Below, piece by piece: positions 30,215 to 36,745 of a stretch of DNA of 64,000 nucleotides. The notes beneath the pieces are model-generated. The model saw only the letters and a program-made list of their open reading frames with translations. It did no database searches and was not told where the DNA came from. The first letter of the stretch is position 1, and the number at the start of each line of letters is the position of its first letter. This DNA is from an uncultured Ruminobacter sp. (lineage in GTDB: Bacteria; Pseudomonadota; Gammaproteobacteria; Enterobacterales; Succinivibrionaceae). The stretch lies in assembly GCA_902764345.1 (NCBI GenBank), contig CACWVT010000003.1:1-64000 (forward strand). The letters run 5' to 3'. The position numbers were made by a program, and so were the translations under genes.

Positions 30215-32401
30215 CTAACCTCTTCTGCCCGCAGATACAATAACAACCTTATCTTTACCGTTGTTACGCATGAATGTATACGGAGACATGGAGATGGTGG
30301 TGTGCTTACCGGCAGCTACTGAAGGATGCTTCAGGCGGAAGTTACCAAGAATTGACCAGTGCTCAACAAGATCCTTATACTCAGGCTTACTCAGATCACC
30401 CCAGTTCATGTCTGAACGTACAGACTGGTCGATATAACCGCCATCCTTCATCAGATCACGACCTGACTCATCACCGTAATAAATCTGAACCTGACCAGGA
30501 AGCATCATAAAGCTGTTAGCAGCACGCTTCTGAAGTGCAAAGTCCTTATAATCACCAAAGAAGAGTTTTGTATCGTGAGATGAAATATAAGACAGAGCAT
30601 TAAACCCAGGATCACCGCTAATCATTCTGGCATACTTGGAGTAAGTATCATCAGCAGTCTTCATACACTGAGTGTAAGTCATTGATTCTTTCTGATAATC
30701 GAAATTGATAATACTTGAGAATCCGTTGTCATACCATAAATCTCTGGCCACACCGTGATCCCATACTTCACCAACCATAAAGAATGGTAAGTCATCAAGC
30801 TTCTTGGTAGGATTTTCAGCCTTCCATTCCTTTAATGCCTTAACAGCAGATTCATTCAGCTTCTTCCATGCAATTGGGTCCACATGCTTTACGGTATCAC
30901 CTCTGAAACCGTCAACACCGAATTTTCTGACATAGTAAGTATGCCAGCTCACAAGATAATCCACAATCGTTGCATTAGGTAAATCTACTGCATTGGTATC
31001 CTTCTTGTGCTTTAAGAAATACGGAAGTGATACGGTCTTGGTGCTTTCAGTAAGGAAGTCAGGAAGACCGCCTACAGCCATGTCGGCATCACCGACACCA
31101 GGTTCAGGATATCCAGGTAAACCGGCTCTTACCCAATCAGGTCCCCACCACTTGTTCCAATCCTTAGACTTGGTATTTATGAAGGCGTTTACACTGCTCC
31201 AGGTACCGAACATACCTACAGGCTTAAAGTCTGAGTAATCGTCAGGGAGCTGATCCTTCTTATTAACAAGTTCAGGAAGATTCAAATCCTGAAGGTCCTT
31301 AAGAGTTGGATGGCCGCCATGATTCATTACCACGTCAACAAGTACTCTTATTCCTCTCTTATGAGCTTCATCGATAAATTCCTGGAAATCGGCTTCAGAA
31401 CCAAGGTTCTTGTCAATCTTGGTAAAGTCCATTGCCCAGTAACCGTGATAAGCGTAGAACGGGAATGACTGTTCAACACCACCGCCAATGAAACCGTGAG
31501 ACTGTTCTACAATAGGAGTAACCCAGATGGCATTAATACCAAGCTTCTTAAGATAATCAAGCTTTTGAGTTATACCCTTGAAATCACCGCCATGCCATGT
31601 ACCGATTTCATCCTCACCATCAAATTTTCTACCGTATGAATGGTCATTAGACTTATCTCCGTTATTAAAACGGTCGGTTAACATAAAGTAAACATTGGCA
31701 TTATCCCAGCTGAATTCAGGTACCGGTATATCTTTAGCTTCTTCGAGAAGAAGAATACCTTCACTTGAAGCCGCAGGAGTCATTGTAACCTTTCCGTTCT
31801 TAACAACTGCAGTCTGGCCTGAATATGCATCCCTAACCTTAGTGCCGTTCTTCCATGCCTTAGAAACATTAGCAGTTACAGGGCCACCATCCCACTTATC
31901 ACAATCGACAGCAGGAGGCTGACGCTTAACCTCAACCTTTCTTGTACCTCTTAAGATACTTAATGTAGGTGTGTCCTTGGTATAATTGAGAGTAAAATCG
32001 TAGGTACTTGGAAGCAGAACCTTAAGTTCGAATTCGCCCTTGGCACAGTTTGACATTTGTGTTGCAGTACCAAAGGTAATCTTTGCATCAGCATCTGGGC
32101 CGAAGGTGGTACCACAGGTTAAACCTGCATCACCCAGCTTAATCTTATAGGTACCTTTCTCAAGTGCAACAGATGCCTTGTAAACATTATTCTTCTCATG
32201 AAGTTTAAATTCACTTGAAGAACCAGCATTTACACCGTCAACATAGATATATACGGGCTTATTATCAAGCTTACCGGTTAAAGTCGCCTGCTCCTTTACC
32301 TGTTTTGCAACAGGGCCCTGACCTACAGAATTGTCGCTGTTACAGCCGTAAACTCCGACAGAAACTGCCAGAGCCAGAGTTGATAACAAAAATTTGTTCA
32401 T
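30215..32401 (-). CDS. MalS-like alpha-amylase lipoprotein (GH13)
   Basis: Secreted or periplasmic starch/maltodextrin hydrolase, 728 residues. The N-terminus has a signal peptide with a lipobox-like VYGC, so a lipid anchor is likely. As in E. coli MalS, a beta-domain signature (VRDAYSGQTAVVKNGKV) comes before the catalytic barrel, and the protein ends soon after the barrel. GH13 residues: nucleophile D502 (GFRGDTVKH), acid/base E545 (VGEVWDHG), transition-state D610 (SSHDTKLF). MalS family marks are YGRK, GTWHGGD and YHGYWAMD. A TATAAT lies at 32473-32478 upstream, with a poor -35. No clear MalT box was found. Confidence 0.92.
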   Translation of the reverse strand: MNKFLLSTLALAVSVGVYGCNSDNSVGQGPVAKQVKEQATLTGKLDNKPVYIYVDGVNAGSSSEFKLHEKNNVYKASVALEKGTYKIKLGDAGLTCGTTFGPDADAKITFGTATQMSNCAKGEFELKVLLPSTYDFTLNYTKDTPTLSILRGTRKVEVKRQPPAVDCDKWDGGPVTANVSKAWKNGTKVRDAYSGQTAVVKNGKVTMTPAASSEGILLLEEAKDIPVPEFSWDNANVYFMLTDRFNNGDKSNDHSYGRKFDGEDEIGTWHGGDFKGITQKLDYLKKLGINAIWVTPIVEQSHGFIGGGVEQSFPFYAYHGYWAMDFTKIDKNLGSEADFQEFIDEAHKRGIRVLVDVVMNHGGHPTLKDLQDLNLPELVNKKDQLPDDYSDFKPVGMFGTWSSVNAFINTKSKDWNKWWGPDWVRAGLPGYPEPGVGDADMAVGGLPDFLTESTKTVSLPYFLKHKKDTNAVDLPNATIVDYLVSWHTYYVRKFGVDGFRGDTVKHVDPIAWKKLNESAVKALKEWKAENPTKKLDDLPFFMVGEVWDHGVARDLWYDNGFSSIINFDYQKESMTYTQCMKTADDTYSKYARMISGDPGFNALSYISSHDTKLFFGDYKDFALQKRAANSFMMLPGQVQIYYGDESGRDLMKDGGYIDQSVRSDMNWGDLSKPEYKDLVEHWSILGNFRLKHPSVAAGKHTTISMSPYTFMRNNGKDKVVIVSAGRRG

Positions 32402-32521
32402 AAATAATCCTTAGATACACCAGTCAGTATAGAAAAAGACAGTTAATAATTAGATAGAAAAGATTGTAAATGATTATATAGTATTAGTCTGTTTTATTAA
32501 ATATAAACAGTGATTAATAAC

Positions 32522-32547
32522 AAAAAACCACCCGAAGGTGGTTTTTT
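32522..32547 (-). terminator. Terminator of the second rpoA gene
   Basis: Stem AAAAAACCACC with GGTGGTTTTTT around TTCG (minus strand), an exceptionally stable tetraloop terminator, 17 bases after the rpoA2 stop. It isolates rpoA2 from the amylase gene. Confidence 0.93.
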
Positions 32548-32563
32548 AAAGAAAAAGATTTAA

Positions 32564-33628
32564 TTAGAGTCTGTACTTAACTTCAGGCTCAATTTCAGCC
32601 TCTGGCCAGTTCTCGATGCGCATACCGAGTGAAAGTCCTTCACGTGAAAGAACATCCTTGATTTCAGAAAGAGACTTCTTACCAAGATTTGGAGTTCTCA
32701 ACAATTCAACTTCAGTGCGCTGTACAAGGTCACCGATGAGCTTAATACCTTCAGCCTTGAGACAGTTTGCAGAACGAACGGTAAGTTCAAGCTCTTCAAC
32801 AGGCTTAAGAAGCTGAGGATTAATCTTAGGCTCATTATCTTCTTCAACAACAGGTTCACTGAATGAGCTGATGTTGATGAAAGCATCAAGCTGTTCATGG
32901 AAAATTGTTGCAGCATGCTTAAGAGAATCTTCAGGGGTAATGGTACCGTCGGTTTCAAGGCTTATTACGAGACTTTCAAGCGGTCTGCCTTCATTATTTT
33001 CGTATGGTTCAACCTTATATGCCACATTCTTAACAGGGCTGTATGTAGCATCAACAAGTAATCTTCCTTCACCGTGATCTCTGTGATCCTCGGTGTGATT
33101 AGCTGAACGTAAATCTGCTCTGTCAAAACCTCTGCCTCTGTCTACATAAATTTCCATGATGAATGGTACTGAACGATGTGTAATGTGACAGATCTCAAGT
33201 TCAGGGTTCAAAATTCTGACACCAGTTGGACAATAGATGTCACCGGCAGTGATTGGACCAACATAATCACTCTTAAAAGAATGAGTATCTTCAGAAGAAA
33301 TTTCAGGGTCATTCACATGTAAAGAAAGCACTGCTTCATTCATAGTGGTATTTTCGATCTCTACCGCAATCTTCTTAAGATTGAGAAGTAACACCAGAAT
33401 GTCTTCCTGTAAGCCTTCCTTGGTAGTATATTCATGATCAACACCCTTGATTTTAACGGCATTGATAGCACAACCAGGCATAGATGATAATAATATTCTT
33501 CTTAAGGCGTTACCTAAAGTAAGACCGAAATTTTGTTCAAACGGTTCAAGTCTAATAATTGATTGAGTCTGAGAGATTTTTTCAATATTAGCCTGCTGCG
33601 GTCTAAAAGTATCAGTTGAGAAGTTCAA
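32564..33628 (-). CDS. Second RNA polymerase alpha subunit (rpoA paralogue)
   Basis: Full-length alpha subunit, 354 residues from TTG 33628. That start is preferred because GAGGA lies 7 bases before it and the N-terminus then aligns with E. coli RpoA; an open frame reaches 33658. The N-terminal domain keeps [19 protein letters not shown] and [12 protein letters not shown]. It has about 15 extra residues before VGPITAGDI compared with the neighbouring copy. The C-terminal domain keeps RSANCLKAE (the E. coli R265 region) and NLGKKSL, so DNA and activator contacts look intact. Its own promoter and terminator make it an independent unit directly after rplQ. Confidence 0.92.
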
Positions 33629-33705
33629 GTTTGATTCCTCATTTGACAGAATATACAATCTGTATAAAATTTAACAATTGCCAAAAAGCAAAAAATGATC
33701 GTTTT

Positions 33706-33733
33706 ATTATATACAGTGCATAATAAAAGTCAA
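33706..33733 (-). promoter_or_regulatory. Sigma-70 promoter of the second rpoA gene
   Basis: Minus strand: TTGACT (33728-33733), 16-base spacer, TATAAT (33706-33711). One mismatch in the -35 and a perfect -10. The expected transcript start is near 33699, giving a leader of about 70 bases. It begins just after the rplQ terminator. Confidence 0.8.
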
Positions 33734-33736
33734 GCT

Positions 33737-33772
33737 AAAAAAAGATAAAAAGACCCCGCTTTCACGAGGTCT
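33737..33772 (-). terminator. Alpha-operon terminator after rplQ
   Basis: Minus-strand stem AGACCTCG with GCGGGGTCT (one G-T pair), loop TGAAA, followed by a T-rich run. It ends the rpsM-rpsK-rpsD-rpoA-rplQ transcript before rpoA2. Confidence 0.82.
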
Positions 33773-33794
33773 ATTTTATTACTTAAATAATAAT

Positions 33795-34184
33795 TTAAGC
33801 TTCTGCAGTTTCAGCAACTTCAGCAGGCTTCTGATCAACTAAGCTGATGTAAGCCATCTGAGTCATGTCACCTGGACGTAAACCACACTTTAAAATGCGG
33901 GTGTAACCACCATTACGTTCGAGACAACGCTTACCAATGTCGTTGAAAAGCTTGGTAACGATATCTCTATCGCGGGTACGTGCAAACACTAAACGACGAT
34001 TAGCAACACTGTCTACCTTAGCAATAGTGATAAGACGTTCAGCAACACGACGTAATTCCTTTGCCTTAGGTAAAGTAGTCTTAATAGTTTCTTCTCTGAA
34101 TAAGGCTACAGCTAAAGCACGGAATAATGCAGCACGGCTGCTGCTATTGCGGTTCAACTGACGACCGCTCATACGATGACGCAT
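33795..34184 (-). CDS. rplQ: 50S ribosomal protein L17
   Basis: 129 residues; starts [17 protein letters not shown], the family N-terminus, with [14 protein letters not shown] and NGGYTRILK following. Last gene of the alpha operon, 27 bases after rpoA. Confidence 0.97.
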
Positions 34185-34211
34185 GATATCTTCCTTATAA
34201 AATAAATGTTG

Positions 34212-35213
34212 TTATGACTTAGAACCTTGAGACAACTCAGCAGGAGGCCAGTTATCAAGACGCATACCTAAGGACAAGCCGCGCTGAGCAAGAACATCCT
34301 TAATTTCGGTAAGAGATTTTCTACCGAGGTTCGGAGTCTTTAAGAGCTCAACTTCAGTACGCTGAACCAAGTCACCAATATACTGTATACTTTCAGCCTT
34401 TAAGCAGTTAGCAGAACGAACTGTTAACTCGAGATCATCAACGGACTTAAGAAGTACCGGATCCGGAGCAGGAACATGAGTCTGCTCTACAGGGCTTACT
34501 GTCTTAACAGCATCTAAATCCACAAAAGAATATAGTTGTTCACGAAGGATACTTGCACCTAAATGAATAGCCTGTTCTGGATCTAACACACCGTTAGTTA
34601 CAATATCAAGCACCAATTTATCCAATTCAGTTCTCTGTTCAACACGTGCTGAATCAACTTCATAAGATAAATATTTAACGGGACTGAAACTTGCGTCTAA
34701 CATAATGTTGTTGTCTTCATCAAAGCCTGGCTTTCTGCCCTGCATATTAGCAGGTAAAAAACCTACGTTGCGCACAACCTTCATCTTCATCTGAATGTTA
34801 GATTTAGCATCCTTAAGGTGACAAAGTACGTGATCCTTATTAAAGATGGTTACCTTATCACTGAGGATATCGCCTGCGCAGACGGGACCGGCTCCAGACT
34901 TGGACAATTCTATATCGACTTCATTTTCTGCATCATCTAATATATTTACTGCTATGCCCTTAACGTTCAATAACAGTTCAAGAACATCTTCCTGAATATC
35001 TGACTTTGCACTATATTCATGCGCAACACCATCGATGATTACATCGGTAATTGCACAACCAGGAACAGACATTAATAGACAACGACGCAAAGCCTGACCC
35101 AATGTATTGCCAAAACCACGTTCCAGAGGTTCGAGAACTACGTTCGCATGGTTTGGAGCAATTGGTTCTATTGCAACCTGTCTTGGTTTTAAAAAGTCTT
35201 TTACAGAGCCCAA
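34212..35213 (-). CDS. rpoA: RNA polymerase alpha subunit, canonical-locus copy
   Basis: 333 residues; the copy in the conserved place between rpsD and rplQ. It starts with TTG at 35213 behind GAGGGA. The N-terminal domain has [19 protein letters not shown] and [15 protein letters not shown], keeping the E. coli R45 and L48 equivalents. The segment equal to E. coli GRLLVDACYSPV is altered to [11 protein letters not shown], which changes the Val173 region implicated in beta-prime binding. The C-terminal domain is standard ([16 protein letters not shown]). Expression should follow the S4-controlled alpha leader. A paralogue lies 600 bases downstream. Confidence 0.96.
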
Positions 35214-35239: not shown

Positions 35240-35863
35240 TTACTTAGAGTAAAGTTCGATGATAAGCTGTTCCTGAATATCAGCAGGTAAATCTGAACGT
35301 TCTGGAACGCGTACATACTTACCCTTCATGTTATCAGCGTCTACTTCTACCCAGCTGATTGGTTCGCTGGCCTTAGCTAAATCAAGAGCAACCTTGATAC
35401 GTTCCTGATTCTTAGCCTTTTCACGGATAACAATTTCTGAACCTGCAGAAACCTGGAATGAAGGGATGTTTACAACCTTACCGTCAACCATGATAGCCTT
35501 GTGGCTAACAAGCTGTCTTGCTTCAGCTCTGGTAGAACCAAAACCCATTCTGTAAACTACGTTATCAAGACGGGATTCAAGAAGCTTAAGAAGGTTTTCA
35601 CCGGTGTTACCGTTTAAGCGAGAAGCCTTCTTGTAGTAGTTTCTGAACTGACGTTCTAAAACACCGTAAATACGACGAACTTTCTGCTTTTCACGTAACT
35701 GAAGACCGTATTCAGAAGTACGAGGTCTGTTTTCCCAATGCTGACCAGGAAGCTTTCTTGATCTTTCGCCACGAGAAGCAAAAGCCTTAACACCTGACTT
35801 GAGGAAAAGGTCGGTACCTTCTCTACGGCTTAATTTAATAGATGGTCCAATATATCTTGCCAT
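35240..35863 (-). CDS. rpsD: 30S ribosomal protein S4
   Basis: 207 residues; N-terminal [20 protein letters not shown]4 RNA-binding motif [23 protein letters not shown]. Primary 16S binder and the translational repressor of the alpha operon in E. coli; a matching leader is seen upstream of rpsM. Confidence 0.97.
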
Positions 35864-35891: not shown

Positions 35892-36293
35892 CTACACACG
35901 ACGCTTCTTCGGTGGACGACAGCCGTTGTGTGGAATTGGGGTTACGTCAGTGATATTGGTAATCTTATAACCAATAGCATTGAGAGCACGAATTGAAGAT
36001 TCGCGACCAGGACCTGGGCCCTTTACGTTTACTTCAAGATTCTTAACGCCGTATTCCTTGGCTGCTTCACCAGCACGTTCAGCTGCTACCTGAGCAGCAT
36101 ATGGAGTGGACTTACGGGAACCACGGAAACCAGAACCACCAGAAGTAGCCCATGAAAGAGCATTACCCTGACGGTCAGTAATAGTAATAATTGTATTGTT
36201 AAAAGAAGCGTGAATATGAGCTACGCCATCTGCTACCTGCTTCTTTACGCGCTTACGAGCACGAGCATTAGTGCTGTGAGATGCTTTAACCAT
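35892..36293 (-). CDS. rpsK: 30S ribosomal protein S11
   Basis: 133 residues, slightly longer at the N-terminus than the E. coli 129. Motifs [18 protein letters not shown] and [14 protein letters not shown]; ends [11 protein letters not shown]. Platform protein of the 30S subunit. Confidence 0.97.
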
Positions 36294-36307: not shown

Positions 36308-36664
36308 TTACTTCTTAATTGCCTTGCGCGGACCCTTACGAGTACGAGCATTAGTCTTAGTACGCTGACCATTTACTGGTAAGCCCTTACGATGACGAAG
36401 ACCACGGTAACAACCAAGATCCATAAGACGCTTAATGTTTAAAGTAATTTCACGACGAAGGTCACCTTCAACAGTGTACTTAGCAACCTGTTCACGAACT
36501 TTATCTAATACAGATTCATCTAAATCTTTAATTTTAACGTCTTCTCTGATCTGAGCATCAGCACAAATCTTCTTAGCGGTGGTAGCACCGATACCGTAGA
36601 TGTACTGAAGTGCAATAACAGCATGCTTCTGATCAGGAACGTTAATACCAGCTATACGGGCCAC
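36308..36664 (-). CDS. rpsM: 30S ribosomal protein S13
   Basis: 118 residues; starts with GTG at 36664 behind AGGAG, as in E. coli. Sequence [20 protein letters not shown] and C-terminal [14 protein letters not shown]. First gene of the alpha operon; its start codon lies within the S4-binding leader. Confidence 0.97.
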
Positions 36665-36735
36665 TATAAACTCCTAATATGTAAGTTATAAAAAATAGCC
36701 TCCGCAAAGCCCGTTAGGATACGCGGGGGCCGACT
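36648..36735 (-). ncRNA. Alpha-operon ribosomal protein leader (S4-binding pseudoknot)
   Basis: The minus-strand sequence from 36735 to the rpsM start shares blocks with the E. coli alpha leader as I remember it: GTATCCT, ACGGGCTTT, ACATATTA, AGGAGT and the GTGGCCCGTATAGC start region. An outer stem GCCCCCGC/GCGGAGGC (one mismatch) flanks the first two blocks. S4 is expected to trap the ribosome here and repress the operon, including the canonical rpoA. Confidence 0.82.
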
Positions 36736-36745
36736 AGTGCACAAT

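Follow-up and report, generated by a model that had tools for sequence, protein, structure and literature searches.

The stretch of DNA analysed here, called the window below, covers 64,000 nucleotides (positions 1 to 64,000, forward strand) of contig CACWVT010000003.1 from an uncultured Ruminobacter sp. of the family Succinivibrionaceae (assembly GCA_902764345.1). On its minus strand the genes run in the order rpsM-rpsK-rpsD-rpoA-rplQ-rpoA, with two genes for the alpha subunit of RNA polymerase, termed copies A and B in this order (Table 1). Bacteria normally use alpha as two identical copies, and the alpha dimer, from which assembly of the enzyme starts, is the textbook case of a symmetric homodimer. 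Both genes are intact and full-length as originally predicted: their frames are open, all three Pfam RpoA domains are present in order, and both exceed the NCBIfam rpoA equivalog cut-offs NF003513, NF003519 and TIGR02027. For B, a mechanical ORF call gives 364 residues from 33658, while the 354-residue protein starting at 33628, where the TTG is preceded by GAGGA, is used throughout. The AlphaFold single-chain models (mean pLDDT 83.3 for A and 80.1 for B) show the layout typical of alpha, and their matches in the PDB are alpha chains. B shares 99% of its residues with the copy on a contig named Ruminobacter sp. and 96% with that of Ruminobacter amylophilus DSM 1361, which belongs to the Succinivibrionaceae by taxonomy. 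Directly downstream of B, at 30215-32401 of the minus strand, lies a gene for a 728-residue lipoprotein-like, alpha-amylase-type protein, named from a look at its sequence.

Table 1. Features at the two-rpoA locus, in window coordinates
Feature	Coordinates	Strand	Remarks
rpoA copy A	34212..35213	-	333 aa, TTG start; canonical alpha-operon position; putative beta'-facing alpha
rpoA copy B	32564..33628	-	354 aa, TTG start at 33628; beyond rplQ; putative beta-facing alpha
rplQ (L17)	33795..34184	-	between copies A and B; ATG start
rpsD (S4)	35240..35863	-	upstream of copy A
rpsK (S11)	35892..36293	-	
Alpha_RBS (RF00140), S4 feedback site	36632..36738	-	operon head; 75.5 bits against a gathering score of 38
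Terminator-like hairpin, T-rich tail	33751..33772	-	after rplQ; consensus match
Promoter-like TTGACT-16-TATAAT	33706..33733	-	before copy B; consensus match; putative
Terminator-like hairpin	32521..32548	-	after copy B

The two proteins are identical at 156 of 332 aligned residues. The 49 matches first reported for the initial 91 residues were reproduced exactly on recount; for the C-terminal domain (CTD) the reported 52 matches in 63 became 50, a figure that depends on the block edges. Across the family, R265, N268, N294, G296, K298, S299 and E302, which we take to be the DNA-contact positions of the CTD, are kept in 43/43 A and 44/44 B proteins. The sequence GRLLVDA is indeed absent from A and present in B, and B does carry about 15 extra residues, located between E. 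coli positions 106 and 107.

Both copies were found in 45 of 56 Succinivibrionaceae genomes, so the pair is no artefact of the window's assembly, and in 44 of the 45 the order rpsD-A-rplQ-B is seen on one contig; in G035 B is cut by the contig end with the order intact, and in G046 the pieces lie on separate contigs. The two-copy state extends over 12 of 14 genera. A single rpoA match was found in six genomes, all from the sister genera g12 and g13, which have one copy; one genome (G044) yielded a B-type fragment at a contig edge, and four genomes with completeness of 77-89% gave no match. The second copy is not absent from the relatives: of the 52 genomes that gave a match at all, 45 have it. 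An apparent second rpoA in the single-copy genome G051 was rejected as a 61-position match inside a 1381-residue frame. No second whole rpoB or rpoC was seen in the family, each gene being found in 46 of the 56 genomes, and the ranges of the extra matches show them to be parts of a single gene or, for G002, fragments.

Outside the family, a sample of 295 genomes of the order gave second rpoA matches only in genus g24 and in genome G249, where the extra match is a short C-terminal-like piece. In genus g24, from another family of the order, two to four matches occur in one genome; of the two genomes looked at, G123 carries a pair identical at 314 of 328 residues, and G188 has four copies with equal scores. 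Among 370 genomes of the class, full-length divergent pairs occurred in family f72 (four genomes) and in G515, and nine other genomes outside the Succinivibrionaceae with two or three matches had only fragments or short pieces as extras. The second alpha of G515 (G515:C164:4-855, L110) is clearly different and sits at the end of a contig, the genome having 4% contamination, and might be foreign DNA or part of a real pair. In f72, the second alpha of G371 aligns along its entire length with F. tularensis alpha2 (6wmp_B) at 641.7 bits, which identifies the family as Francisella or something very near. Second matches inspected in 18 genomes outside the Succinivibrionaceae and this Francisella-like group were near-identical, partial or, in G515, suspect. 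A literature search, mostly outside subscription journals, found nothing on rpoA in Succinivibrionaceae, Succinivibrio or Ruminobacter; the papers listed for rpoA duplication were two on Francisella, one on plastids and one on E. coli HolC that mentions an rpoA duplication.

The N-terminal and C-terminal domain phylogenies proposed at the outset separate A from B in each case. In the N-terminal (NTD) tree of 79 rows, which like the CTD tree was built without Francisella, support was 100/98 for A, 100/99 for B and 97/86 for A and B together, with the single-copy genera outside. The CTD tree, built from few columns, also keeps A (97/96) and B (94/85) apart, and concerted evolution of the CTDs, which had been considered, finds no support in it. 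A quick RpoB tree, made without the rpoB of G055, unites the two-alpha genomes at 100 with the single-copy genera as their sister at 99. The two-alpha genomes themselves fall into two groups, the Ruminobacter clade with genera g1, g7, g10 and g14, and a larger clade. Since the NTD and RpoB trees agree on this species split, the best account of the data is a single duplication at the base of the two-alpha clade. In the larger clade the stem of A amounts to 1.05 changes per column against 0.15 for the same branch in RpoB, the two values coming from different models. Pairwise NTD dN/dS over 12 genome pairs lies at 0-0.14 for A and 0-0.16 for B, with one B pair undefined through saturation, and CTD values are below 0.1, similar to the single-copy genera (0.04 and 0.09, with a third pair saturated). 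Both copies are now under purifying selection, and the relaxed selection that would have spoken against a functional pair is not seen in either today.

The study of Mukhamedyarov et al. (2011; PMC3294249) places the beta side of alpha in segments 30-55 and 65-75 and at R45, and the beta' side in 175-185 and 195-210 and at K86 and V173. As the sole test these footprint segments proved too coarse and were given up, separating the copies weakly (p 0.019 in the larger clade, 0.10 in the Ruminobacter clade and 0.037 in Francisella). Single residues were counted over 43 A (8 from the Ruminobacter clade, 35 from the larger) and 44 B proteins (8 and 36), after removal of the G044 fragment, both G035 rows and the duplicates of G123 and G515. 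On the beta side, B keeps R44, R45, S49, P52, H66, E67, Y68 and D77 in 44/44. In A, the larger clade has lost R44, R45 and S49 in 35/35 and most of 66-68 and 77, while R44 and R45 are kept in all eight proteins from the window's own clade, that of Ruminobacter. The presence of R45, L48 and RSANC in both copies, as first described, holds for the window; family-wide, R45 occurs in both copies only in the Ruminobacter clade (8 of the 43 A genes). On the beta' side the picture is reversed. A retains the ARVEQRTDLD stretch (190, 191, 193-196 and 199 in 43/43) and likewise Y185, R195 and D199, whereas the ARVEQRTD loop is lost from B in both clades, in the larger one partly by deletion: residues 190-196 are changed or deleted, with R still aligned at 195 in 4/44 and E at 193 in 6/36 of the larger clade, and N replaces R182 and E replaces D199 in 44/44. 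The beta'-side losses in A are GRLLVDA and, in the Ruminobacter clade, also R182 (Y in 8/8); K86 is kept in both copies. In the larger clade A is without R44 and R45, and B, as in the Ruminobacter clade, is without the beta' loop, so that neither homodimer there would have both faces. In beta and beta' themselves, changes special to the two-alpha clade are few (12 of 773 and 4 of 876 conserved sites, with the rpoB of G055 left out). A co-change of their alpha-binding surfaces was dropped as giving no clear signal, the changes, viewed without a contact map, being tied to no alpha surface.

A similar asymmetry is found where the two alphas meet. Within the dimer, F35, T38 and L39 of one chain contact I46, S50 and Q227 of the other (PMC3294249). 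In the larger clade B alone is changed at 33-36, 38, 39 and 47, and A alone at 44, 45, 49, 50, 223, 227, 228 and 231. Sorted by dimer half, A-only changes number 0 in 33-39 and 8 in 44-50 and 220-231, and B-only changes 6 and 1 (p 0.0014). Because the residues changed in B (33-39) have as their known partners those changed in A (44-50 and 223-231), an A-B dimer is predicted to have one mostly ancestral half and one half changed on both sides, and either homodimer of the larger clade would pair changed with unchanged residues in both halves. The same comparison in the Ruminobacter clade has only four differing sites (p 0.33), and F35, T38, L39, S50 and Q227 are kept there in 8/8 A proteins. With R45 and most dimer residues retained, A homodimers may still work in the Ruminobacter clade.

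The closest parallel is the alpha1/alpha2 heterodimer of the distantly related Francisella (Mukhamedyarov et al., 2011; PDB 6wmp, chains A and B), whose orientation, alpha1 on beta and alpha2 on beta', is itself deduced in that paper. Francisella likewise has two divergent rpoA genes, of which one keeps R45 without the 190-200 loop and the other the reverse. Site by site the pattern of asymmetric losses is largely the same: over the 111 N-terminal sites at which 20 or more of the 21 outgroup alphas agree, losses confined to A coincide with those confined to alpha2, and losses confined to B with those confined to alpha1, with two-by-two counts of [[11,2],[3,11]] in the larger clade and [[7,0],[2,12]] in the Ruminobacter clade. 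For the window's own pair set against one Francisella pair the counts are [[6,0],[2,10]] (p 0.0015), and nine threshold settings in both clades gave p from 2e-7 to 0.031 with the direction never reversed, all these p-values being too small since many concordant sites lie in one loop (190-199) and are non-independent. In PDB searches A scores higher with F. tularensis alpha2 than with alpha1 (213.2 against 195.8 bits) and B higher with alpha1 than with alpha2 (181.8 against 157.6 bits), E. coli-type alphas scoring far higher with both. The two systems differ in gene arrangement: in Francisella alpha1, the copy deduced to face beta, is encoded between rpsD and rplQ and alpha2 elsewhere, whereas in Succinivibrionaceae the operon copy A is alpha2-like and the alpha1-like B lies beyond rplQ. 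They differ also in that the Succinivibrionaceae pair spans 12 genera and has weak starts on both genes, whereas in the Francisella-like set a weak start is seen on alpha1 only (GTG in 3/4), alpha2 having ATG in 4/4. Heterodimerisation was measured in Francisella (PMC3294249), whereas for Succinivibrionaceae it is deduced from sequence.

The start codons, read in context, form a pattern of their own. A starts with TTG in 8/8 loci of the Ruminobacter clade and with GTG in 34/35 of the larger clade (ATG in G037), and B with TTG in 42/44 (GTG in G022; the frame of G045 is cut), whereas rpoA starts with ATG in 6/6 single-copy relatives and in 21/21 outgroup alphas including E. coli, so the weak starts arose after the split from the single-copy genera. 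GTG or TTG on both alphas, with the A gene of G037 as the one exception, next to rpsD and rplQ that are still ATG (49/49 each), is a new observation. The heuristic used left 28 of 49 rpsK starts unresolved. GTG also starts rpsM (36308-36664 in the window) in 48/49 family loci; as these include the six single-alpha ones, the GTG of rpsM predates the split of the alphas. A plausible reason for the weak alpha starts is that each alpha is now needed once rather than twice per enzyme. The GTG of alpha1 in three of the four Francisella-like genomes (L104-L107) could be a parallel.

Because the contact residues are lost reciprocally and the same split is found in Francisella, these data point to one RNA polymerase that contains an oriented A-B heterodimer, A facing beta' and B facing beta, and to a pair that likely goes back to one duplication; we give this reading a probability of about 0.74. 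A single duplication at the base of the two-alpha clade would have produced A and B, followed by reciprocal decay in which B lost the beta' loop and A of the larger clade its beta contacts, whereupon homodimers would be disfavoured and the complex would take a fixed orientation. The GTG and TTG starts would lower the output of each copy, one of each being needed instead of two. In the Ruminobacter clade the process would be less advanced, B having given up its beta' side and A retaining R45 and most dimer residues. The original prediction of a heterodimer with one copy per large subunit is thereby strengthened by the reciprocal losses and the Francisella-like split, but pairing may not be obligate in the Ruminobacter clade, where A keeps R45. 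A fuller version, towards which we lean with less assurance, is that the family independently reinvented the split alpha known from eukaryotes and archaea: an obligate, oriented A-B heterodimer with an ancestral and a rebuilt half, arrived at by changing residues that Francisella changed too, with GTG and TTG starts keeping the two copies in balance. The Ruminobacter clade would represent an intermediate stage of this path.

How B is transcribed bears on a different explanation, in which A and B would form homodimers or mix freely and yield alternative polymerases whose CTDs answer to different promoters or activators. By eye, a T-tailed hairpin follows rplQ in 8/8 loci of the Ruminobacter clade and a TTGAC-TATAAT site precedes B in 5/8, which would suit separate expression. 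In the window a promoter scan found 13 sites against a mean of 7.2 in shuffles, a result not telling by itself, and a terminator scan found 2 against 1.8. Counted from the rplQ stop to the B start codon, B begins 158-180 bases past rplQ in 8/8 Ruminobacter-clade loci, whereas the distance in the larger clade is 56-109 bases for 25/35 loci and 140-520 for the ten from genus g2; the 15 larger-clade spacers that were read mostly hold a hairpin with little T-tail. The hairpin- and promoter-like sites and the distances suggest that B is probably transcribed separately in the window, and probably together with the operon in many relatives. Copy-specific residues in the C-terminal half (274, 276, 309 and 319, for instance) and the almost ancestral dimer interface of A in the Ruminobacter clade would likewise fit alternative polymerases. 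However, in the larger clade each homodimer would miss one face, the CTD DNA-contact residues are the same in A and B, and the short distance from rplQ to B in 25 of its 35 loci suggests joint transcription. Alternative polymerases are therefore not favoured and appear unlikely.

The A-B pair could also share one origin with the Francisella pair through transfer, and in the full-length alpha tree Francisella alpha1 does join B at 86/88. Trees that group A with alpha2 or keep the Succinivibrionaceae rows together are, though, equally allowed (AU p 0.46, 0.52 and 0.53). When the interface segments are removed, alpha1 leaves B and the rows of each family group weakly (Succinivibrionaceae 36/47, Francisella-like 78/61), the grouping of B with alpha1 being still unrejected at p 0.42. 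A separate origin is favoured because of the RpoB tree, which keeps the two lineages apart, the gene order, and the finding of one copy in almost every other lineage sampled, where the second matches inspected are near-identical, partial or suspect; the alpha tree does not contribute to this. A shared origin by transfer is judged improbable.

The GRLLVDA argument of the original prediction suggests the second copy on beta', and the corresponding reversed arrangement, with B on beta' and A on beta, has in its favour that A lacks this sequence around V173, and R182 too in the Ruminobacter clade, while B keeps GRLLVDA. The remaining contacts turn the argument round: B keeps the beta contacts in 44/44 and has lost 190-199, A of the larger clade lacks R44, R45 and most of H66-Y68 and retains the loop, and Francisella alpha2 also lacks V173, having L at 173. 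The reversed orientation is consequently very unlikely. Redundant or decaying duplicates with no division of labour would account for the long stems of both copies, as expected from relaxed selection after duplication, but their retention in 12/14 genera, the purifying selection now acting on them and a reciprocal pattern of losses that recurs in Francisella leave this explanation with next to no weight.

An oriented A-B heterodimer would recall Rpb3/Rpb11 of eukaryotes and Rpo3/Rpo11 of archaea, which are also two dissimilar alpha-type subunits with one per large subunit (PMC3294249). Those pairs differ in their very old split, one much smaller partner and further assembly subunits, whereas A and B are both full alphas with a CTD. 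More than one rpoA is also present in Chloroflexus, Streptomyces avermitilis, Psychromonas ingrahamii and Leptospira borgpetersenii; in the same paper the duplicates are described as identical in Psychromonas and Leptospira, fairly recent in S. avermitilis and, in Chloroflexus, without drastic changes at the interfaces. Succinivibrionaceae would provide a second, widespread case in which two specialised paralogues replace the symmetric alpha homodimer. With living genera standing at earlier and later points of the process, the path from homodimer to obligate heterodimer would be directly testable, the changed residues being few, many of them lying on known interfaces, and two lineages being open to comparison. 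If true, the enzyme of a cultured rumen bacterium would carry two distinguishable CTDs at fixed places.

Some further features were observed in the large subunits. In 26/26 two-alpha genomes aligned (G000:C26:4929-9338, L140, and 25 others, L141-L159 and L165-L170), RpoB contains 133-148 inserted residues following E. coli position 411; the insertion is absent from five single-alpha genomes, 20 outgroups including E. coli and two Francisella-like genomes. The Ruminobacter insert has no Pfam match, and a protein search of short reach, which missed the larger-clade inserts, returned only its own or a near-identical protein and one 70% relative. The insertion arose on the same branch as the alpha duplication; a tie between the two was considered and set aside, as nothing connects them apart from that branch. 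The rpoB frame of G055 (L144) appears broken into two pieces near profile position 1083-1092, through a sequencing error or in reality. Compared with E. coli, RpoC is longer by 26 residues after position 592 in each of the 29 family members aligned. A further 50-60 residues follow position 1072 in 5/5 genomes of the Ruminobacter clade (L140-L144) and in that clade only, and 160 follow position 502 in one genome of the Ruminobacter clade.
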